Assembly: GCF_026000575.1 (NCBI RefSeq)
Contig: NZ_AP026910.1
Location: 372,001-436,000, forward strand
Source: Rhodoluna sp. KAS3
Lineage (GTDB): Bacteria; Actinomycetota; Actinomycetes; Actinomycetales; Microbacteriaceae
Length of the DNA stretch: 64,000 bases
Reading direction: 5' to 3'
In this document: piece by piece, positions 4,773-10,029 of the stretch
Layout: each line of letters starts with the position of its first letter
Position numbering within the stretch: position 1 is the stretch's first letter
Translations under genes and position numbers: made by a program
The notes under the pieces: generated by a model
Database searches by the model: none
Told to the model about the DNA's origin: nothing
The model's input: only the letters and a program-made list of their open reading frames with translations

Positions 4773-4795
4773 ATTCTTTCGTAAAGAGTTAACTG

Positions 4796-4825
4796 AAAAA
4801 CCCCACCGAATCGGTGGGGTTTTTC
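4796..4825. terminator. Rho-independent terminator, atp operon / adenosyltransferase
   Basis: CCCCACCG (4801-4808), loop AAT, CGGTGGGG (4812-4819), flanked by five A on the left and a T5 run on the right. The symmetric A/T flanks let it work in both directions, closing atpHAGDC from the left and the minus-strand adenosyltransferase gene from the right. Confidence 0.93.
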
Positions 4826-4834
4826 GCTTAAGGT

Positions 4835-5452
4835 CTAGTTCTCTCGGTTGGCGGCCGGAACCCATTTCACATCGCCGCCGTGATTTAGATTGGCGTACCT
4901 AGCCAGAACAAACAGTAGGTCGCTCAGCCGGTTCAAGTACTTGGCAGCCGCTACATTGATGCCGCCATTGTGCTGGCCACGTTTGGCTGGCTCGGTGCCA
5001 TACGCTTCGATCGCATGCCAGGTGGCACGTTCGGCCCTTCTGACCACAGTTCTCGCCAGGTGAAGGCCGGCCGATAATCCAGTGCCGCCCGGAATGATGA
5101 ACGAGTCTAGTTTGGTGAGCTGTCCGTTGTACTTATCGATGGCCGCCTCGAGTGCGTCGATCCAGAGATTGTTGACCCTCAATGGCTCATATTCGTAGTG
5201 TTCGTTGAGCGGGTTTGACAGATCCGCGCCGAGGTCAAAAAGTTCATTTTGTATCTGTGACAGCAACGCGAGAGTCTCTGCGTCAAACTCATTTTTTGCC
5301 AGGGCCACGGCAACACCGATGGCCGAATTGGCTTCATCCACGTCTGCGTAGGCCTCAATGCGAGGGTCGGTTTTTCTGGTTCTCGAGAAATCACTCAAAC
5401 CCGTCATGCCTTCGTCACCAGTGCGGGTATAAATCTTCGTTAGCTTGACCAT
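4835..5452 (-). CDS. pduO: PduO-type cob(I)alamin adenosyltransferase
   Basis: Transfers the 5'-deoxyadenosyl group of ATP to cob(I)alamin to make adenosylcobalamin, a soluble trimeric enzyme. The N-terminus contains TRTGDEGMTGL (ATP-binding segment) and YADVDEANSAIG, and the C-terminal part has RTVVRRAERATW, all hallmarks of the PduO/Cob(I) family; 205 residues is the family length. A PduO gene next to atpC is a common actinobacterial arrangement. It is transcribed divergently from yaaA, with only 36 bp between start codons. No Shine-Dalgarno precedes the ATG; a TAGACT hexamer six bases upstream suggests a leaderless mRNA. Its presence implies use of B12-dependent enzymes, which are not seen in this window. 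Confidence 0.92.
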   Translation of the reverse strand: MVKLTKIYTRTGDEGMTGLSDFSRTRKTDPRIEAYADVDEANSAIGVAVALAKNEFDAETLALLSQIQNELFDLGADLSNPLNEHYEYEPLRVNNLWIDALEAAIDKYNGQLTKLDSFIIPGGTGLSAGLHLARTVVRRAERATWHAIEAYGTEPAKRGQHNGGINVAAAKYLNRLSDLLFVLARYANLNHGGDVKWVPAANREN

Positions 5453-5458
5453 GCCTCA

Positions 5459-5464
5459 AGTCTA
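5459..5464 (-). promoter_or_regulatory. -10 hexamer of the leaderless adenosyltransferase promoter
   Basis: On the minus strand TAGACT is followed by TGAGGC and then the ATG. The six-base gap places the expected transcription start on the start codon, and there is no ribosome site. The TGAGGC-ATG junction is repeated at ftsK, dapF and pstC. Confidence 0.6.
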
Positions 5465-5476
5465 GGCTCATCGAAA

Positions 5477-5482
5477 TAGGCT
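5477..5482 (+). promoter_or_regulatory. -10 hexamer of the leaderless yaaA promoter
   Basis: TAGGCT, then six bases (ATTGGT), then the ATG of yaaA at 5489. No Shine-Dalgarno is visible, so transcription probably begins at the start codon. Confidence 0.6.
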
Positions 5483-5488
5483 ATTGGT

Positions 5489-6196
5489 ATGTACTTTTTG
5501 CTGCCGCCGTCCGAGACCAAGGCCACTGGTGGTAGCCAATCCTTTGCACTTGAGCAACTCAGTTTTCCTGACCTCATTGAGGCTCGCAAAGCTGTGCTTG
5601 GCGCCTACGGGTCCAGCGAAATCTATGGGGTGCCGGGAATGGCGGCAATAGACCGCTATACCGGAACCTTGTTTTCAGCTGTTCATGGTCGCGGGTTAAA
5701 GGGCACCAGTACGGCGAATAATTCGCTAACAGAAGCCGAGCGTGCGCTGGCTCATGGGGCCGTATTCATTCAGTCTGCGCTGTTTGGCTTGGTCGGGGTA
5801 AACGACGCTCTGCCGGTTTATAAGCTGAATCCGAGTCGCAAGTTGAACGGTCTGGACCTCAAAAAAACCTGGGCAGACGCGCATCTTTCCCTTTGGTCGG
5901 CTTTTGGTTCGGCGCCCATTCTGGATCTAAGGTCCAAGGCGTATGCCGAGTTGGCTCCGATACCTGCCGAAGTTGGCGCCTACTCGGTGGTTGTTTTCGT
6001 GGAAAAGGACAATGGTGTTAGGGAACAGCTCAATCACTTCAACAAGAAAGCCAAAGGGCAGCTGGTTCGAAGTGCGTTGATCGGTCAGGAAATTCCGAAA
6101 ACCATCGATGAGCTCGCTGAACGAGCGAGCCTAGCCGGCCTCAAGCTCGAGGTTTCCGACCGCGTCATCACAGTTGTAACCCGCCAGGCTACTTAG
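5489..6196 (+). CDS. yaaA: YaaA family peroxide-stress protein (UPF0246)
   Basis: YaaA proteins limit damage from hydrogen peroxide, in E. coli by lowering free intracellular iron, and bind DNA in vitro. The 235-residue protein begins with LLPPSETKATGG, the family's hallmark N-terminal motif (LxPPSEtK), and ends with a region resembling the family's conserved helix-hairpin-helix part. E. coli YaaA is ~258 residues, so this is a slightly short member, as in other actinobacteria. Divergent from the adenosyltransferase gene. The 3' end overlaps the convergent 425-residue membrane protein gene by 8 bp. The family call is firm; the role in this organism is inferred. Confidence 0.88.
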   Translation: MYFLLPPSETKATGGSQSFALEQLSFPDLIEARKAVLGAYGSSEIYGVPGMAAIDRYTGTLFSAVHGRGLKGTSTANNSLTEAERALAHGAVFIQSALFGLVGVNDALPVYKLNPSRKLNGLDLKKTWADAHLSLWSAFGSAPILDLRSKAYAELAPIPAEVGAYSVVVFVEKDNGVREQLNHFNKKAKGQLVRSALIGQEIPKTIDELAERASLAGLKLEVSDRVITVVTRQAT

Positions 6197-7466
6197 TTAC
6201 CTCAATCTCAGGTAGCTTTACGAGACCGTCCTCCAGTGCAAACACGGCACCGGCAAAAGCATCTTTTGCGTAGTAGACGTATCCGGGCAGGATCCAAACC
6301 GAGTTGTCTGAAGCCCAAATAGTGACGTTAGCTGATTCTGCAGAATCGATGGCTAGATCCAAAATCTCTGGTTCAAGCGCTGACTCGGGGTCAAGTTCGC
6401 GGGTGTCAATACCATTGGCCATGGGCAACGCAATACCTGAGTTATAAAACTTGTAGGCAACGCCGCCCGAGTAGCGATAATCGGCAAGTCGAGAGACCGC
6501 CGATTGTTGGCTCACGGTGTTGAAGGTTCCCATTTGTTCAAACTCTGCCGCGAAGCCGCTGACGCTGGCCAGTGCTCCAGAGTCAGACCAACTCATCCAC
6601 CACATCTCGGCGGTTGGGCTGCCATTCAAAAACATCGATGCTTCAACAGAAGCACCCCAGGTGTCACGTGGCACCCGAAGCTGATTTCTAGGAAAACTCA
6701 CGCCCGCGGAGGTAAAAATCTGATTCGCCTGTTCCACAAGTTCGGATTCGGTTGGAACCTTGCCTGATTTAATTGGTGTTTCGACAAAGCCAGAGCAATC
6801 CGGGTCAACCTGATCGACTTCGCCATCGCTGGCTACTGGTTCGCAGGATTTCAGAGCTTGAACGTTTGGCCAGGCGCTCGGATCGTTGTACCACCAACTT
6901 CCGTTACCAGACCAGTTCAAGTAAACGTTTGGACCGGAACCATCCTCTGGTCCGAGCACCCAGGTTGGCCATTCTGCCGACGAGTACTGCGATTCTTTTG
7001 GGGTTCCTTCGATCGAGAAGACCCGGCCAAGCATCAATAGGTAATCAGTTGGTGAGCCATTTAGCTTGGCTTTATAGGCCACGCCCTGGCCAGCCTCACT
7101 GCCCAGCGAATCACCGGCTAGATAGTTGTACTGCGTCCACATCATCATGTCGCGCACACCTTGGTCGGCTTCGGTTCCGGGTGCTCCCTTGGCGCCAAGC
7201 ATAGAGCTGCTCTGCGAGTCGCCCACGGATAGCAAGTATTGCGGCTCCCCGGGAGACAGGGTCAATGGAATCGTGATGGCAAGTGCTCCCGCTGCAGCCA
7301 GCGCGGTCAAGATGAACCTCGGTCTAGCGGCGGCATTCATGCGGTGCTTACGCCCAAGCCCATGGGCTTGTGTAGTTGTGGCGTTGTGCAGTACCTCACT
7401 TCCTAGTTCAACTTCGACCACTGGGTCGGCTGCTTTTAGGCGGGCATCCAGATTGTTTTCTCTCAT
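6189..7466 (-). CDS. Membrane-anchored partner of the ECF sigma factor; function unknown
   Basis: I do not recognise a named family. The 425-residue protein has a ~50-residue N-terminal cytoplasmic segment, one membrane helix at about 51-70 (FILTALAAAGALAITIPLTL) and a ~350-residue exported domain with a Cys pair (SC...DC, around 211-223) that could form a disulfide. It lies 24 bp downstream of an ECF sigma gene, and its start is preceded by the same bipartite promoter element as the sigma gene. The topology suits an anti-sigma factor or a sigma-controlled surface sensor, but the short cytoplasmic part has no zinc-binding HxxxCxxC motif. ATG at 7466 has no clear ribosome site. Function inferred from context only. 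Confidence 0.8.
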   Translation of the reverse strand: MRENNLDARLKAADPVVEVELGSEVLHNATTTQAHGLGRKHRMNAAARPRFILTALAAAGALAITIPLTLSPGEPQYLLSVGDSQSSSMLGAKGAPGTEADQGVRDMMMWTQYNYLAGDSLGSEAGQGVAYKAKLNGSPTDYLLMLGRVFSIEGTPKESQYSSAEWPTWVLGPEDGSGPNVYLNWSGNGSWWYNDPSAWPNVQALKSCEPVASDGEVDQVDPDCSGFVETPIKSGKVPTESELVEQANQIFTSAGVSFPRNQLRVPRDTWGASVEASMFLNGSPTAEMWWMSWSDSGALASVSGFAAEFEQMGTFNTVSQQSAVSRLADYRYSGGVAYKFYNSGIALPMANGIDTRELDPESALEPEILDLAIDSAESANVTIWASDNSVWILPGYVYYAKDAFAGAVFALEDGLVKLPEIEVTK

Positions 7467-7470
7467 ATCT

Positions 7471-7501
7471 GGTTTATGTCGCCCGAGTCTCTAATCTTTC
7501 A
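7471..7501 (-). promoter_or_regulatory. Candidate ECF-sigma promoter in front of the partner gene
   Basis: On the minus strand TGAAAGATTAGA, nine bases, GACATAAACC, ending four bases before the ATG of the partner gene. TGAAAG and GACATA are 15 bases apart, a fit to ECF -35/-10 spacing. The -35 part overlaps the last codons and stop of the sigma gene. The same element with identical spacing precedes the sigma gene itself (8005-8035). Confidence 0.65.
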
Positions 7502-7970
7502 CGGCTAGATATTTTGCAAGTTTGGCTCTGGCGCGGTGCAGCTTTGCGCTGGCGGCATTGGCAGAAATACTGAGCGCTCCAGCGGCTTCGCCAACCCCCA
7601 GGCCGTCAAAGGCCACCAACGCAAGCAATGCTCGATCTGAGGCGCTCAGTTTTGCCCATCCGGCCGCTAGATCCGCATCGAATACAGCTAGCGATTCTGC
7701 CGAGGGTGCGTTGTCGGGACTCAGGGTTAGGGTTAGAAACTTCAACGCGGAACTTTGTCGGCGACGAAAATTTGAAACCTGGAAACTCGCAATTTTATAG
7801 AGCCAGGGGAGTTCTTGGCCCAGTGCTACCGAGTCTCGTTTTTGCCAGGCAACCTCAAAAACCATTGCGGCTAAATCCTCAACCTGATCCCGGTCAACGC
7901 GACGCCCCAAGTACCGACTGATTGCCGGTAAATGCTCGCGATACGTCGCGACGAAGTGTTCGGGTGTCAT
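7491..7970 (-). CDS. ECF-type RNA polymerase sigma factor
   Basis: Group 4 (extracytoplasmic function) sigma-70 factor that redirects RNA polymerase to a small regulon. The 159 residues contain region 2 (VEDLAAMVFEVAWQKRDSV, then PWLYKIASFQVSNFRRRQ) and region 4 with a helix-turn-helix (DGLGVGEAAGALSISANAASAKLHRARAKL), and no sigma region 1.1 or 3, the expected ECF plan. It is followed 24 bp later by the membrane partner gene and preceded by ogt. A bipartite element shared with the partner gene lies 34 bp upstream and suggests autoregulation. GAGAG before the ATG may be its ribosome site. Subgroup and stimulus cannot be told from sequence alone. Confidence 0.9.
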   Translation of the reverse strand: MTPEHFVATYREHLPAISRYLGRRVDRDQVEDLAAMVFEVAWQKRDSVALGQELPWLYKIASFQVSNFRRRQSSALKFLTLTLSPDNAPSAESLAVFDADLAAGWAKLSASDRALLALVAFDGLGVGEAAGALSISANAASAKLHRARAKLAKYLAVKD

Positions 7971-8004
7971 GCTGCTCTCGAATCTAGGGCCAGGTGCCTC
8001 AAAG

Positions 8005-8035
8005 GGTTTATGTCTGAATGCTGTCTAATCTTTCA
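8005..8035 (-). promoter_or_regulatory. Candidate autoregulated promoter of the ECF sigma gene
   Basis: Minus strand TGAAAGATTAGA-N9-GACATAAACC, 34 bp upstream of the sigma ATG. 22 of 22 fixed positions and the nine-base gap are identical to the element before the partner gene, while the nine spacer bases differ, which is what a bipartite promoter would show. Confidence 0.65.
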
Positions 8036-8050
8036 AAACTGGTATGTGAG

Positions 8051-8527
8051 CTAACCCCCCCCCTCAAGTTTGAGAAGGGCCAACTTGGTCGGAATTCCAA
8101 GCCCTGGCGTGTACCCAGTAACCTGTCCTGTCGAACCGAGTACCCGATGGCATGGAATTCGAAGCGGAACTGGGTTTGCTGCCACTGCGCCGCCCACGGC
8201 TCGAACCGCTTTTGGGTTTCCGCACAATTGGGCAATCTGCCCGTAGCTAAGCGTCTTGCCAAATTTAATGCTCTCAAGCGCACGCCAAACGGCCTCTTGA
8301 AAAGGGGTTCCTTGCGTGGCAACTTCAAAATCTAGTGTTTTGGACTTGCCGCTGAGGTAGCGCGATATTTGGCGCTCAGCCTTGCGAAGTGTGCTGCTAC
8401 GGCCATTTGCCGGGGCTGGCTCGCCGCCTATTACAAGCCGCACCACCTTTTCGTTTCGTGAGTGAATCGAGATAACGCCAAGCGGAGAGTTAAAAGAAAG
8501 GCTCGCGTCGAAGTTGATGTTTGTCAT
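8051..8527 (-). CDS. ogt: Methylated-DNA-[protein]-cysteine S-methyltransferase
   Basis: Suicidal repair protein that removes methyl groups from O6-methylguanine in DNA. The active-site motif PCHRVLG is present with Cys126 as acceptor, preceded by the conserved [22 protein letters not shown] helix-turn-helix segment; 158 residues is normal for Ogt. The last codons are Gly-Gly-Gly encoded by a run of nine G (minus strand) just before the stop. One base lost there would replace the stop by a 14-15 residue tail reaching to about 8008. It is in the same direction as the sigma gene 80 bp downstream. No named regulator site is visible upstream. Confidence 0.9.
8055..8063. repeat. Homopolymer C9 at the 3' end of ogt
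   Basis: Nine consecutive C on the plus strand (G9 in the coding sense), directly before the ogt stop codon. It is the longest G/C homopolymer I noticed in the window and is a plausible slippage site or a sequencing-uncertain position. Confidence 0.85.
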
Positions 8528-8586
8528 GCCCTAACTTTCGTTCATGCATTCATCGTCATTCGACGCGAGCCAAATTCTGTGGAGAA

Positions 8587-10029
8587 CTACATCGCCCGCC
8601 AGGCTTCATCCAAGCAACCTCGGAGAATCTGTTCGATTTCGTTGAACTGATCCGGCCCGATCGTTAGGGGTGGAGCAAGTTGGACTACTGGGTCGCCACG
8701 GTCATCTGAGCGGCAGTAGAGCCCTTCTTCAAACATGCGGTGTGACAAGATTCCGCGGAGCAACTTCTCGGACTCAGCGTCGTTGAAGGTTTCCTTGGTG
8801 TTCTTGTCTTTCACAAGCTCAATGGCGTAGAAGTAACCTTCGCCTCGAACATCGCCCACAATTGGCAGATCGCGCAGTTTCTCAAGCGTGCGGCGGAATT
8901 CCGGTGCATTCCGACGAACATTTCCGACCAGGTCTTCCTCGTCGAAAATATCTAGGTTCTCCAGTGCAACTGCACAAGAAACTGGGTGGCCACCGTAGGT
9001 GTATCCGTGTGGGAACAGTGTGGTGCCCTGCTTGAATGGCTCAAAGAACTTCTCTGACATGATCAATGCACCGATAGGGGCGTAGGCCGAGGTCATGCCC
9101 TTGGCACAAACCAACATGTCAGGCTCGAAGTCGTAGAGCTCCGAAGCAAACATGGTTCCGATGCGACCGAAACCATCAATGGTTTCATCTGCTACCAAAA
9201 TCACGTCGTACTTATCGCAGATCTCGCGAACCCGCTTGAAGTAGCTCTTCGGCGCTGTGAAACAACCACCAGAGTTTTGGACTGGCTCAAGGAAGAATGC
9301 TGCAACCGTGTCTGGGTCTTCAAACAGAATCATTTCTTCAACTCGGTCGGCTGCCCACTTGGCAAAGTCTTCCTCTGTCTCGAAGTCGTCCTGAGCGCGG
9401 TACCAGTTGGTGTTTGGCACACGGAATGTTGATGGAACAAGTGGCTCAAAGGCCTTTTTCATCGATGGAATACCGGTTAGCGAAAGCGCTCCGTGCGAGG
9501 TGCCGTGGTAGGCAACTGCGCGGGTGAGTACCTTGTGCTTCATCGGCTTGCCCTGAAGTTTGAAGTACTGCTTGGCAAGCTTCCATGCTGTTTCGTTGGC
9601 CTCGCCACCACCGGTCGTGAAGAAGACTCGCGACATGTTCTTTGGTGCGTACGAGAGTAGGCGCTCAGAAAGTTCAATACCTGGTTTGTGAGCGTGAGAC
9701 CAGAGCGGGAAGTAGTCCAACTCCTTCATCTGCTTTGCGGCGGCTTCGGCCAGGCGGTGGCGTCCGTGACCAGCGTTCACCGAGAAAAGGCTGGAAATGC
9801 CATCAAAATACTTTTTGCCATTTTGGTCCCAGAAGTGGTGGCCCTCGGCGTGAGTAATTATCGGAATTTCGCCGTTCTTGGCGAAGTATGGGCTGTGGCG
9901 GGTGAAGTGCAAGAACATGTTGTCCTTGGCGGCCTGCTGCAGCATTTGTGGGGTTGGTTCCTGACCTGCTTTACGCGCGTCAAGGAGAGGGGTGGCGGAT
10001 TCTGCTTTCTTTCGATTCCAGATAGCCAT
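8587..10029 (-). CDS. Class III aminotransferase, probably putrescine/omega-amine:2-oxo acid
   Basis: PLP-dependent fold-type I class III transaminase moving the terminal amino group of a diamine or omega-amino acid to pyruvate or 2-oxoglutarate. The PLP lysine is K310 (VCAKGMTSAYAPIG) and the cofactor-binding Asp is D281 (LVADETIDGFGRIG); a TTGGGEANETAWK motif holds the phosphate. The 480 residues and the HYAPxxF-like N-terminal region match the SpuC/omega-aminotransferase group more than GabT. Divergent from the aldehyde dehydrogenase and next to an Lrp-type regulator and a Pot transporter, so putrescine to 4-aminobutanal is the likely reaction; beta-alanine or another amine is possible. 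Weak ribosome site AAAGAG before the ATG. Confidence 0.88.
   Translation of the reverse strand: MAIWNRKKAESATPLLDARKAGQEPTPQMLQQAAKDNMFLHFTRHSPYFAKNGEIPIITHAEGHHFWDQNGKKYFDGISSLFSVNAGHGRHRLAEAAAKQMKELDYFPLWSHAHKPGIELSERLLSYAPKNMSRVFFTTGGGEANETAWKLAKQYFKLQGKPMKHKVLTRAVAYHGTSHGALSLTGIPSMKKAFEPLVPSTFRVPNTNWYRAQDDFETEEDFAKWAADRVEEMILFEDPDTVAAFFLEPVQNSGGCFTAPKSYFKRVREICDKYDVILVADETIDGFGRIGTMFASELYDFEPDMLVCAKGMTSAYAPIGALIMSEKFFEPFKQGTTLFPHGYTYGGHPVSCAVALENLDIFDEEDLVGNVRRNAPEFRRTLEKLRDLPIVGDVRGEGYFYAIELVKDKNTKETFNDAESEKLLRGILSHRMFEEGLYCRSDDRGDPVVQLAPPLTIGPDQFNEIEQILRGCLDEAWRAM

Follow-up and report, generated by a model that had tools for sequence, protein, structure and literature searches.

A repeated bipartite element as the probable promoter of an ECF-type sigma factor gene and of its membrane partner gene in Rhodoluna

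An identical bipartite element precedes the gene for an ECF-type sigma factor and the adjoining gene for a membrane protein on the minus strand of a 64,000-nucleotide stretch of the Rhodoluna sp. KAS3 genome (the window). We consider it probable that its two copies serve as promoters within a single small autoregulatory circuit, and both are very likely recognised by the adjacent sigma factor. The computational analysis supports the sites themselves, their conservation in relatives, their fixed geometry, the co-variation of the copies within genomes, and the finding of no third strong site in the genome.

The element, TGAAAGATTAGA-N9-GACATAAACC, was located at 8005-8035 (5' of the sigma gene) and at 7471-7501 (5' of the partner gene), on the minus strand in both cases. 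In the sigma-gene promoter, the -35 part TGAAAGATTAGA lies at 8024-8035, the spacer at 8015-8023, and the -10 part GACATAAACC at 8005-8014; the corresponding positions in the partner-gene promoter are 7490-7501, 7481-7489, and 7471-7480. An exact-match search of the whole genome (1,338,021 bases, one contig) returned these two sites only, both at the sigma/partner locus, which bears out the earlier note on the sequence, position, and strand of the element. The backwards control pattern gave no match. With up to 3 mismatches allowed, the window contained 2 matches, compared to 0.00 expected from 100 shuffles. Among the 12-N9-10 words on both strands of the window, two were repeated, namely the promoter motif and one palindrome that matches itself on the opposite strand. 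Only 1 of the 9 spacer bases and 16 of the 60 bases in the 30-base flanks on either side agree between the copies, and a recent duplication of the element was therefore ruled out, in line with what had been claimed before. The distance between TGAAAG and GACATA is 15 bases, also as claimed, and the -35 part of the downstream copy does overlap the last codons of the sigma gene (GTG-AAA-GAT-TAG, i.e., Val-Lys-Asp-stop of 7491-7970).

The two window sites scored E 0.001 (sigma gene) and E 1.9e-4 (partner gene) with the promoter profile R1, both sites having been part of the alignment from which this profile was built. The consensus of 39 chosen sites was TGAAAGATT-N10-GCGACATAAAC. The boxes typical of ECF promoters (AAC at -35 and CGT at -10) were found neither in the two window copies nor in this 39-site consensus, all of which carry TGAAAGATT and GACATAA. 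The GAAAG/GACATA boxes, set against the AAC/CGT class, thus agree with the previous placement of the motif outside the usual GGAAC/CGTC class. A run of nine G, a possible slippage site, is present at window 8055-8063, at the very end of ogt and just upstream of the sigma promoter.

The sigma gene (7491..7970, minus strand) encodes an ECF-type sigma factor of 159 aa. Both Pfam matches exceeded their cut-offs (Sigma70_r4_2, 29.4 bits against 25.7; Sigma70_r2, 24.1 bits against 24), the NCBIfam sigma70-ECF match (38.3) was below its cut-off of 42.9, and profile A2 matched solved ECF sigma factors with a best E value of 3e-14. Regions 2 and 4 are present, as in ECF (group 4) sigma factors, and the 159-aa protein contains little beyond them, the Pfam stretches covering residues 10-73 and 106-151. 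Based on the alignment and on the -35 comparison described below, the stretch of residues 129-146 (7533..7586, minus strand) was taken to hold the recognition helix of region 4.2, in line with the general role of region 4. No description of a named ECF group for this sigma factor was found in the open-licence literature searched. Sigma region 2 was detected at four places in the genome, i.e., in the window's gene and in three others. As read from translations, one of these others resembles the SigH/SigR type, and another (L185, 1288-2793) is an unusual sigma factor of 501 aa, in which the sigma regions are followed by a membrane segment and then by a long outer portion. The streamlined Microbacteriaceae member Pontimonas salivibrio has a reported complement of only two sigma factors (PMC6106888).

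The partner gene (6189..7466, minus strand) is an ORF for a 425-aa single-pass membrane protein and putative anti-sigma sensor, modelled with a mean pLDDT of 80.1. Its cytoplasmic stretch (residues 1-50; 7317..7466, minus strand) was delimited with alignment A3 and contains two predicted helices, 6-13 and 23-31, of low to middling confidence (pLDDT about 46-72). It is followed by a probable membrane segment (residues 51-71; 7254..7316, minus strand), recognised by eye as a hydrophobic stretch of low model confidence, and by the ectodomain (residues 100-425; 6192..7169, minus strand). In two predicted models, the ectodomain fold is loosely like the solved structures of YycI, YycH, and YpeB. The window's partner matched no Pfam family, and Pfam and NCBIfam searches with 44 partner relatives gave only repeat families and isolated stray matches. 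The anti-sigma families of Pfam and NCBIfam, whose ASDI domains diverge strongly, were found neither in the window's partner nor in the 44 partners. Residues 1-50 contain no cysteine; the class I ASDI is a domain of ~100 aa, often with Hx3Cx2C. None of the 44 partners matched the YycI or YycH families at E 0.01, and membership of these families by sequence was thus not found. The match of the partner to NCBIfam CU044_5270 was weak (E 0.03; 14.1 bits, the cut-off being 100), and no mention of CU044_5270 was found in the open-licence literature searched. Comparison of the partner profile with solved structures gave no convincing sequence relative (best E 0.21, 5wox), and a search of titles and abstracts in the open-licence literature found no pairing of an anti-sigma factor with YycI. 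An N-terminal ADP motif (RL-AADPAA-like) was seen by eye in partners of both the Microbacteriaceae type and the Cellulomonadaceae type. On balance, we lean towards the view that the partner is an anti-sigma factor and envelope sensor.

The sigma factor was matched in 33 of 59 related genomes (E 0.001). At E 1e-12, the gene was present in 33 of 67 genus genomes, many of them incomplete, and in 13 of the 22 near-complete ones; at E 1e-25, it was matched in 45 of 149 family genomes (20 of these at E 1e-45 or better). The loci compared below are the best 80 of 242, minus the incomplete L129, L131, and L133 and plus the window, giving 78; the window's genome and its near copy G059 were counted separately. 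The named loci among these 80 belong to Microcella, Cryobacterium, Salinibacterium, Homoserinibacter, Aquiluna, Rhodoluna, and further Microbacteriaceae, and also to Cellulomonas, Isoptericola, Sanguibacter, and Actinotalea. Within the genus, 13 genomes, counting that of the window, have sequence past the partner gene, and in 9 of them the next gene is yaaA-like (judged by eye from the start M-FLLPPSE-K). At several loci, ogt- or tag-like genes lie on the near side and the ATP synthase operon on the far side. In the window, the neighbouring ogt, yaaA, and adenosyltransferase genes were assigned by Pfam. This shared gene neighbourhood indicates that the locus is mostly resident and not a recent arrival. 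A terminator-like palindrome, GAAAAACCCC...GGGGTTTTTC, lies at window 4795-4825 between the genes for the ATP synthase epsilon subunit and the adenosyltransferase. In one genome (G001, locus L036), two sigma-partner pairs stand in tandem (sigma genes at 5415-5891 and 7747-8229), the second pair having no clear promoter copy by eye.

Comparison of related genomes, a check suggested in the earlier note, showed each site again in its corresponding position. The junction copy, which precedes the partner gene, exceeded the 99% shuffle threshold in 64 of the 78 loci, the copy upstream of the sigma gene in 38 (with 40 under it), and both copies in 31, but these counts lean upwards because the profile had been built and improved on the very loci to which it was then applied, with thresholds from shuffles, and they include two matches judged wrong (L088 upstream, overlapping another element, and L078 junction, in the wrong place). 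Among the 14 sub-threshold junctions, we observed by eye a spacer one base longer in L092, L098, L104, and L119 and a changed -10 in L096, L102, L109, L113, L115, and L121; the changed -10 of L096 reads TACGTAACC before the sigma gene and GACGTTACT before the partner gene. Since the sigma copy was under the threshold in 40 of 78 loci, autoregulation is not universal. Another element, (A/G)AACGT(T/C)GGG, stands before the sigma gene in 18 of 41 loci (the 40 with no GACATA copy there, plus L088), namely in L063, L065, L067, L070, L073, L079, L082, L083, L087, L088, L095, L098, L101, L111, L114, L116, L123, and L124. In all 18, an ATG is 45 or 46 nt from the start of the element, and CAGACTG-like bases lie just 5' of it. 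This element is perhaps a different promoter, giving a leaderless sigma message from the putative ATG.

At the partner gene, the geometry is fixed with respect to the start codon. The ATG at 7466 is the 9th base past GACATA, and the -10 ACAT begins 13 nt 5' of the partner ATG in 67 of 70 loci. The exceptions are L118, with 14 nt, and L064 and L075, in which the -10 was missed by the search word. The 8 loci left out of this count (L132, L134-L140; Cellulomonas, Isoptericola, Sanguibacter, Actinotalea, and one kindred bin) have their partner start elsewhere. Because the motif had played a part in the choice of this ATG, we recounted with the first ATG of the frame, and this motif-blind rule gave the 13-nt distance in 62 of 70 loci. 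The gap from the sigma stop to the partner ATG ranges from 7 to 117 nt in the 58 loci tallied; it is 7 nt in 21 of these, where the sigma stop codon is part of the -10 (e.g., GACATAA, GACATAG). A Shine-Dalgarno word of 4 bases was found in 9 of 70 partner leaders and longer words in none; words of 4-6 bases precede 30 of 69 sigma genes. With the -10-to-ATG distance fixed while the gap between the genes varies, the partner message is probably leaderless. We hold this prediction with considerable confidence, and from the fixed distance in relatives transcription is expected to start on the partner ATG or immediately 5' of it (7464..7468, minus strand).

The two copies were then compared with each other within genomes (n = 31). 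The -35 boxes of the same genome shared 7.52 of 9 bases, compared to 6.09 after permutation, and none of 20000 permutations was as high. The values were 6.87 compared to 6.45 for the -10 boxes (32/20000 as high) and 4.00 compared to 3.34 of 12 for the spacers (121/20000 as high). After removal of near copies and Cellulomonas-type loci, the remaining 20 loci gave 0/20000 for the -35 boxes, 2839/20000 for the -10 boxes, and 496/20000 for the spacers. The loss of the -10 signal in this subset and the slight likeness of the spacers indicate that base composition or kinship contributes. Among the boxes, the -35 co-variation is the firm signal. It has a possible counterpart in the sigma factor, where 10 of the 78 loci have Q at position 142 (A142 in the window, codon 7545-7547, minus strand). 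C as the fourth -35 base and Q at position 142 were paired consistently in 75 of 76 loci, with L086 as the exception; for this comparison, the -35 was set by eye in L078, L092, L098, L104, L115, and L119, and L071 and L136 were dropped. Each of the two traits changed about three times on the tree, and a comparison by independent pairs was not significant, so that the link between residue 142 and the fourth -35 base is suggestive.

The earlier note regarded random scatter of the motif over the genome as evidence against its reading. Such scatter was not found, as profile R1 (39 sites, including both copies) returned at E below 0.1 only the two known sites and no third one in the genome, though weak or diverged targets could escape it; the next matches were an antisense site in proB (E 0.11) and one at E 4.8. 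Over 67 genus genomes, R1 gave 21 matches at E 0.1 under stricter filters, of which 19 fell at the sigma locus, in 12 genomes, and the other 2 outside it (E 0.04 and 0.08), in a scan that is not sensitive, since 21 of the 33 sigma-bearing genomes gave no match at the locus. The two matches elsewhere are at about chance level for so many genomes. The exact core TGAAAGAT-N13-GACATA occurred 12 times in 199 family genomes, with none for the backwards control: 10 occurrences were at the locus, with the sigma gene adjoining (L171-L180), and 2 inside proB (in the window's genome and its near copy). The core was present in 7 of the 199 genomes, and neither it nor R1 amounts to a census. The looser pattern TGWMAGATT-N12-GACATAA with up to 3 mismatches was found at 18 places in the genome, including the two known sites, compared to 5 for the backwards control. 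Among the 8 of the 16 other places that were read (the rest all with 3 mismatches), none lies directly 5' of a gene on the same strand. By gene names taken from translations, four are antisense in proB, aspS, lnt, and one more ORF, one crosses the start of pheS in antisense, two lie in sense within der and thrS, and one is in the 16S rRNA region.

The earlier proposal that the sigma factor probably drives itself and its partner from separate promoters is thus supported computationally by the Pfam regions, the recurrence in relatives, the -35 co-variation, and the suggestive residue 142 link. In the proposed mechanism, the ECF-type sigma factor (7491-7970) would recognise TGAAAGATT-N12-GACATAA and initiate transcription ~30 nt 5' of its own ATG, and a second start, on the partner ATG or no more than a few nt from it, would give a leaderless partner message. 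As the partner promoter reaches into the 3' end of the sigma gene, the levels of the two proteins could be set separately. Release of the sigma factor would then yield more of both proteins and close the loop again. That the element consists of ordinary housekeeping (sigma-70) promoters or is a chance repeat is scarcely credible. Two copies alone might coincide in one genome, but 0.00 were expected in shuffles, which led us to drop chance, and the sites are kept in relatives. The housekeeping promoter was dropped because a sigma-70 consensus scan of 5400-8700 was blank at both places (1 site elsewhere, 1.5 expected). It is also improbable that another alternative sigma factor or a DNA-binding regulator reads the element, with the adjacent sigma gene as a target only. 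The genome does encode three further proteins with sigma region 2, and many relatives have no copy before the sigma gene. However, the two copies vary together in the -35, which also follows, if only roughly, the recognition helix of the adjacent sigma factor, and outside the locus the motif was found only at the antisense site in proB.

A somewhat stronger, though still rather unlikely, alternative accepts the promoters as described and makes the partner a co-activator or effector protein of the envelope, whose amount is tuned by the sigma factor. The partner gene is served by a separate promoter, and the protein matches no known anti-sigma family; YycI and YycH act on a histidine kinase and are not known to act on a sigma factor. 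With no further strong target in the genome, such a partner may be the only output. Against this stand the N-terminal ADP motif, which is shared by both partner types as expected of a sigma-binding stretch, and the general picture in PMC8103513, where membrane-anchored anti-sigma factors are the most widespread control of ECF sigma factors. Our preferred reading of the partner as an anti-sigma sensor can be taken further, tentatively, to a closed circuit in which the sigma factor serves two promoters, its own and the one of a single membrane protein; the surface protein would then be both sensor and sole output, with a leaderless message and a promoter in the end of the sigma gene. Equally speculative is the extension of this closed circuit by which the promoter often runs through the sigma stop codon and the layout is kept across the Microbacteriaceae.

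Several known systems are comparable. According to PMC3426412, ECF41 sigma factors have a cognate bipartite promoter 5' of the sigma gene and of its neighbour, and these are the only detectable targets reported. The locus described here is like this account of ECF41 in having a promoter before both genes and few or no other targets, and the ECF41 -35 TGTCACA resembles the GTCAG/GTCAC variant of our Q142 loci. In contrast to ECF41, for which the same source gives a large C-terminal extension, a CGTC -10, and an oxidoreductase-type neighbour, our sigma factor has 159 aa and no extension, a GACATA -10, and a membrane-protein partner. PMC8103513 gives AAC/CGT as the usual ECF boxes and describes sigma and anti-sigma genes as typically co-transcribed. 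As in the ECF/membrane anti-sigma systems of that paper, our sigma gene adjoins a membrane partner gene and is predicted to be autoregulated; it differs from them in the GAAAG/GACATA boxes and in the partner promoter within the end of the sigma gene. Class II anti-sigma factors (CnrY) bind sigma regions 4 and 2 with two short helices, according to PMC7406223. The short cytoplasmic part of our partner, with its two predicted helices, is similar to CnrY as portrayed there by prediction and with no sequence link, and the ectodomain is different. The Bacillus proteins YycI, YycH, and YpeB are loosely similar to our partner in its predicted ectodomain fold, but none of the 44 partners matched any of their Pfam families, and the neighbour in our case is a sigma factor. 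Todor and others (PNAS 2020) reportedly derived ECF promoter specificity from autoregulated promoters and found that self-promoters shift with recognition residues; here, two promoters of one genome were compared with each other. Taken together, the promoter class, layout, and ectodomain differ from the known systems, which makes this a variant of a known circuit type.

The analysis defines a promoter class open to experiment (GAAAG/GACATA, plus the variants GTCAG and GCAAG) for a set of ECF-type sigma factors with no match to a named ECF group in the literature searched. The natural -35 variants offer a way to ask how region 4.2 reads the -35, and the locus lends itself to the study of a partner gene that is separated from its sigma gene and has a probably leaderless message. 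The sigma gene occurs in only 33 of 67 genus genomes, so that genomes with and without it can be set side by side. The targets of this sigma factor, in a small genome encoding four sigma-type proteins, may be little beyond itself and its neighbour.
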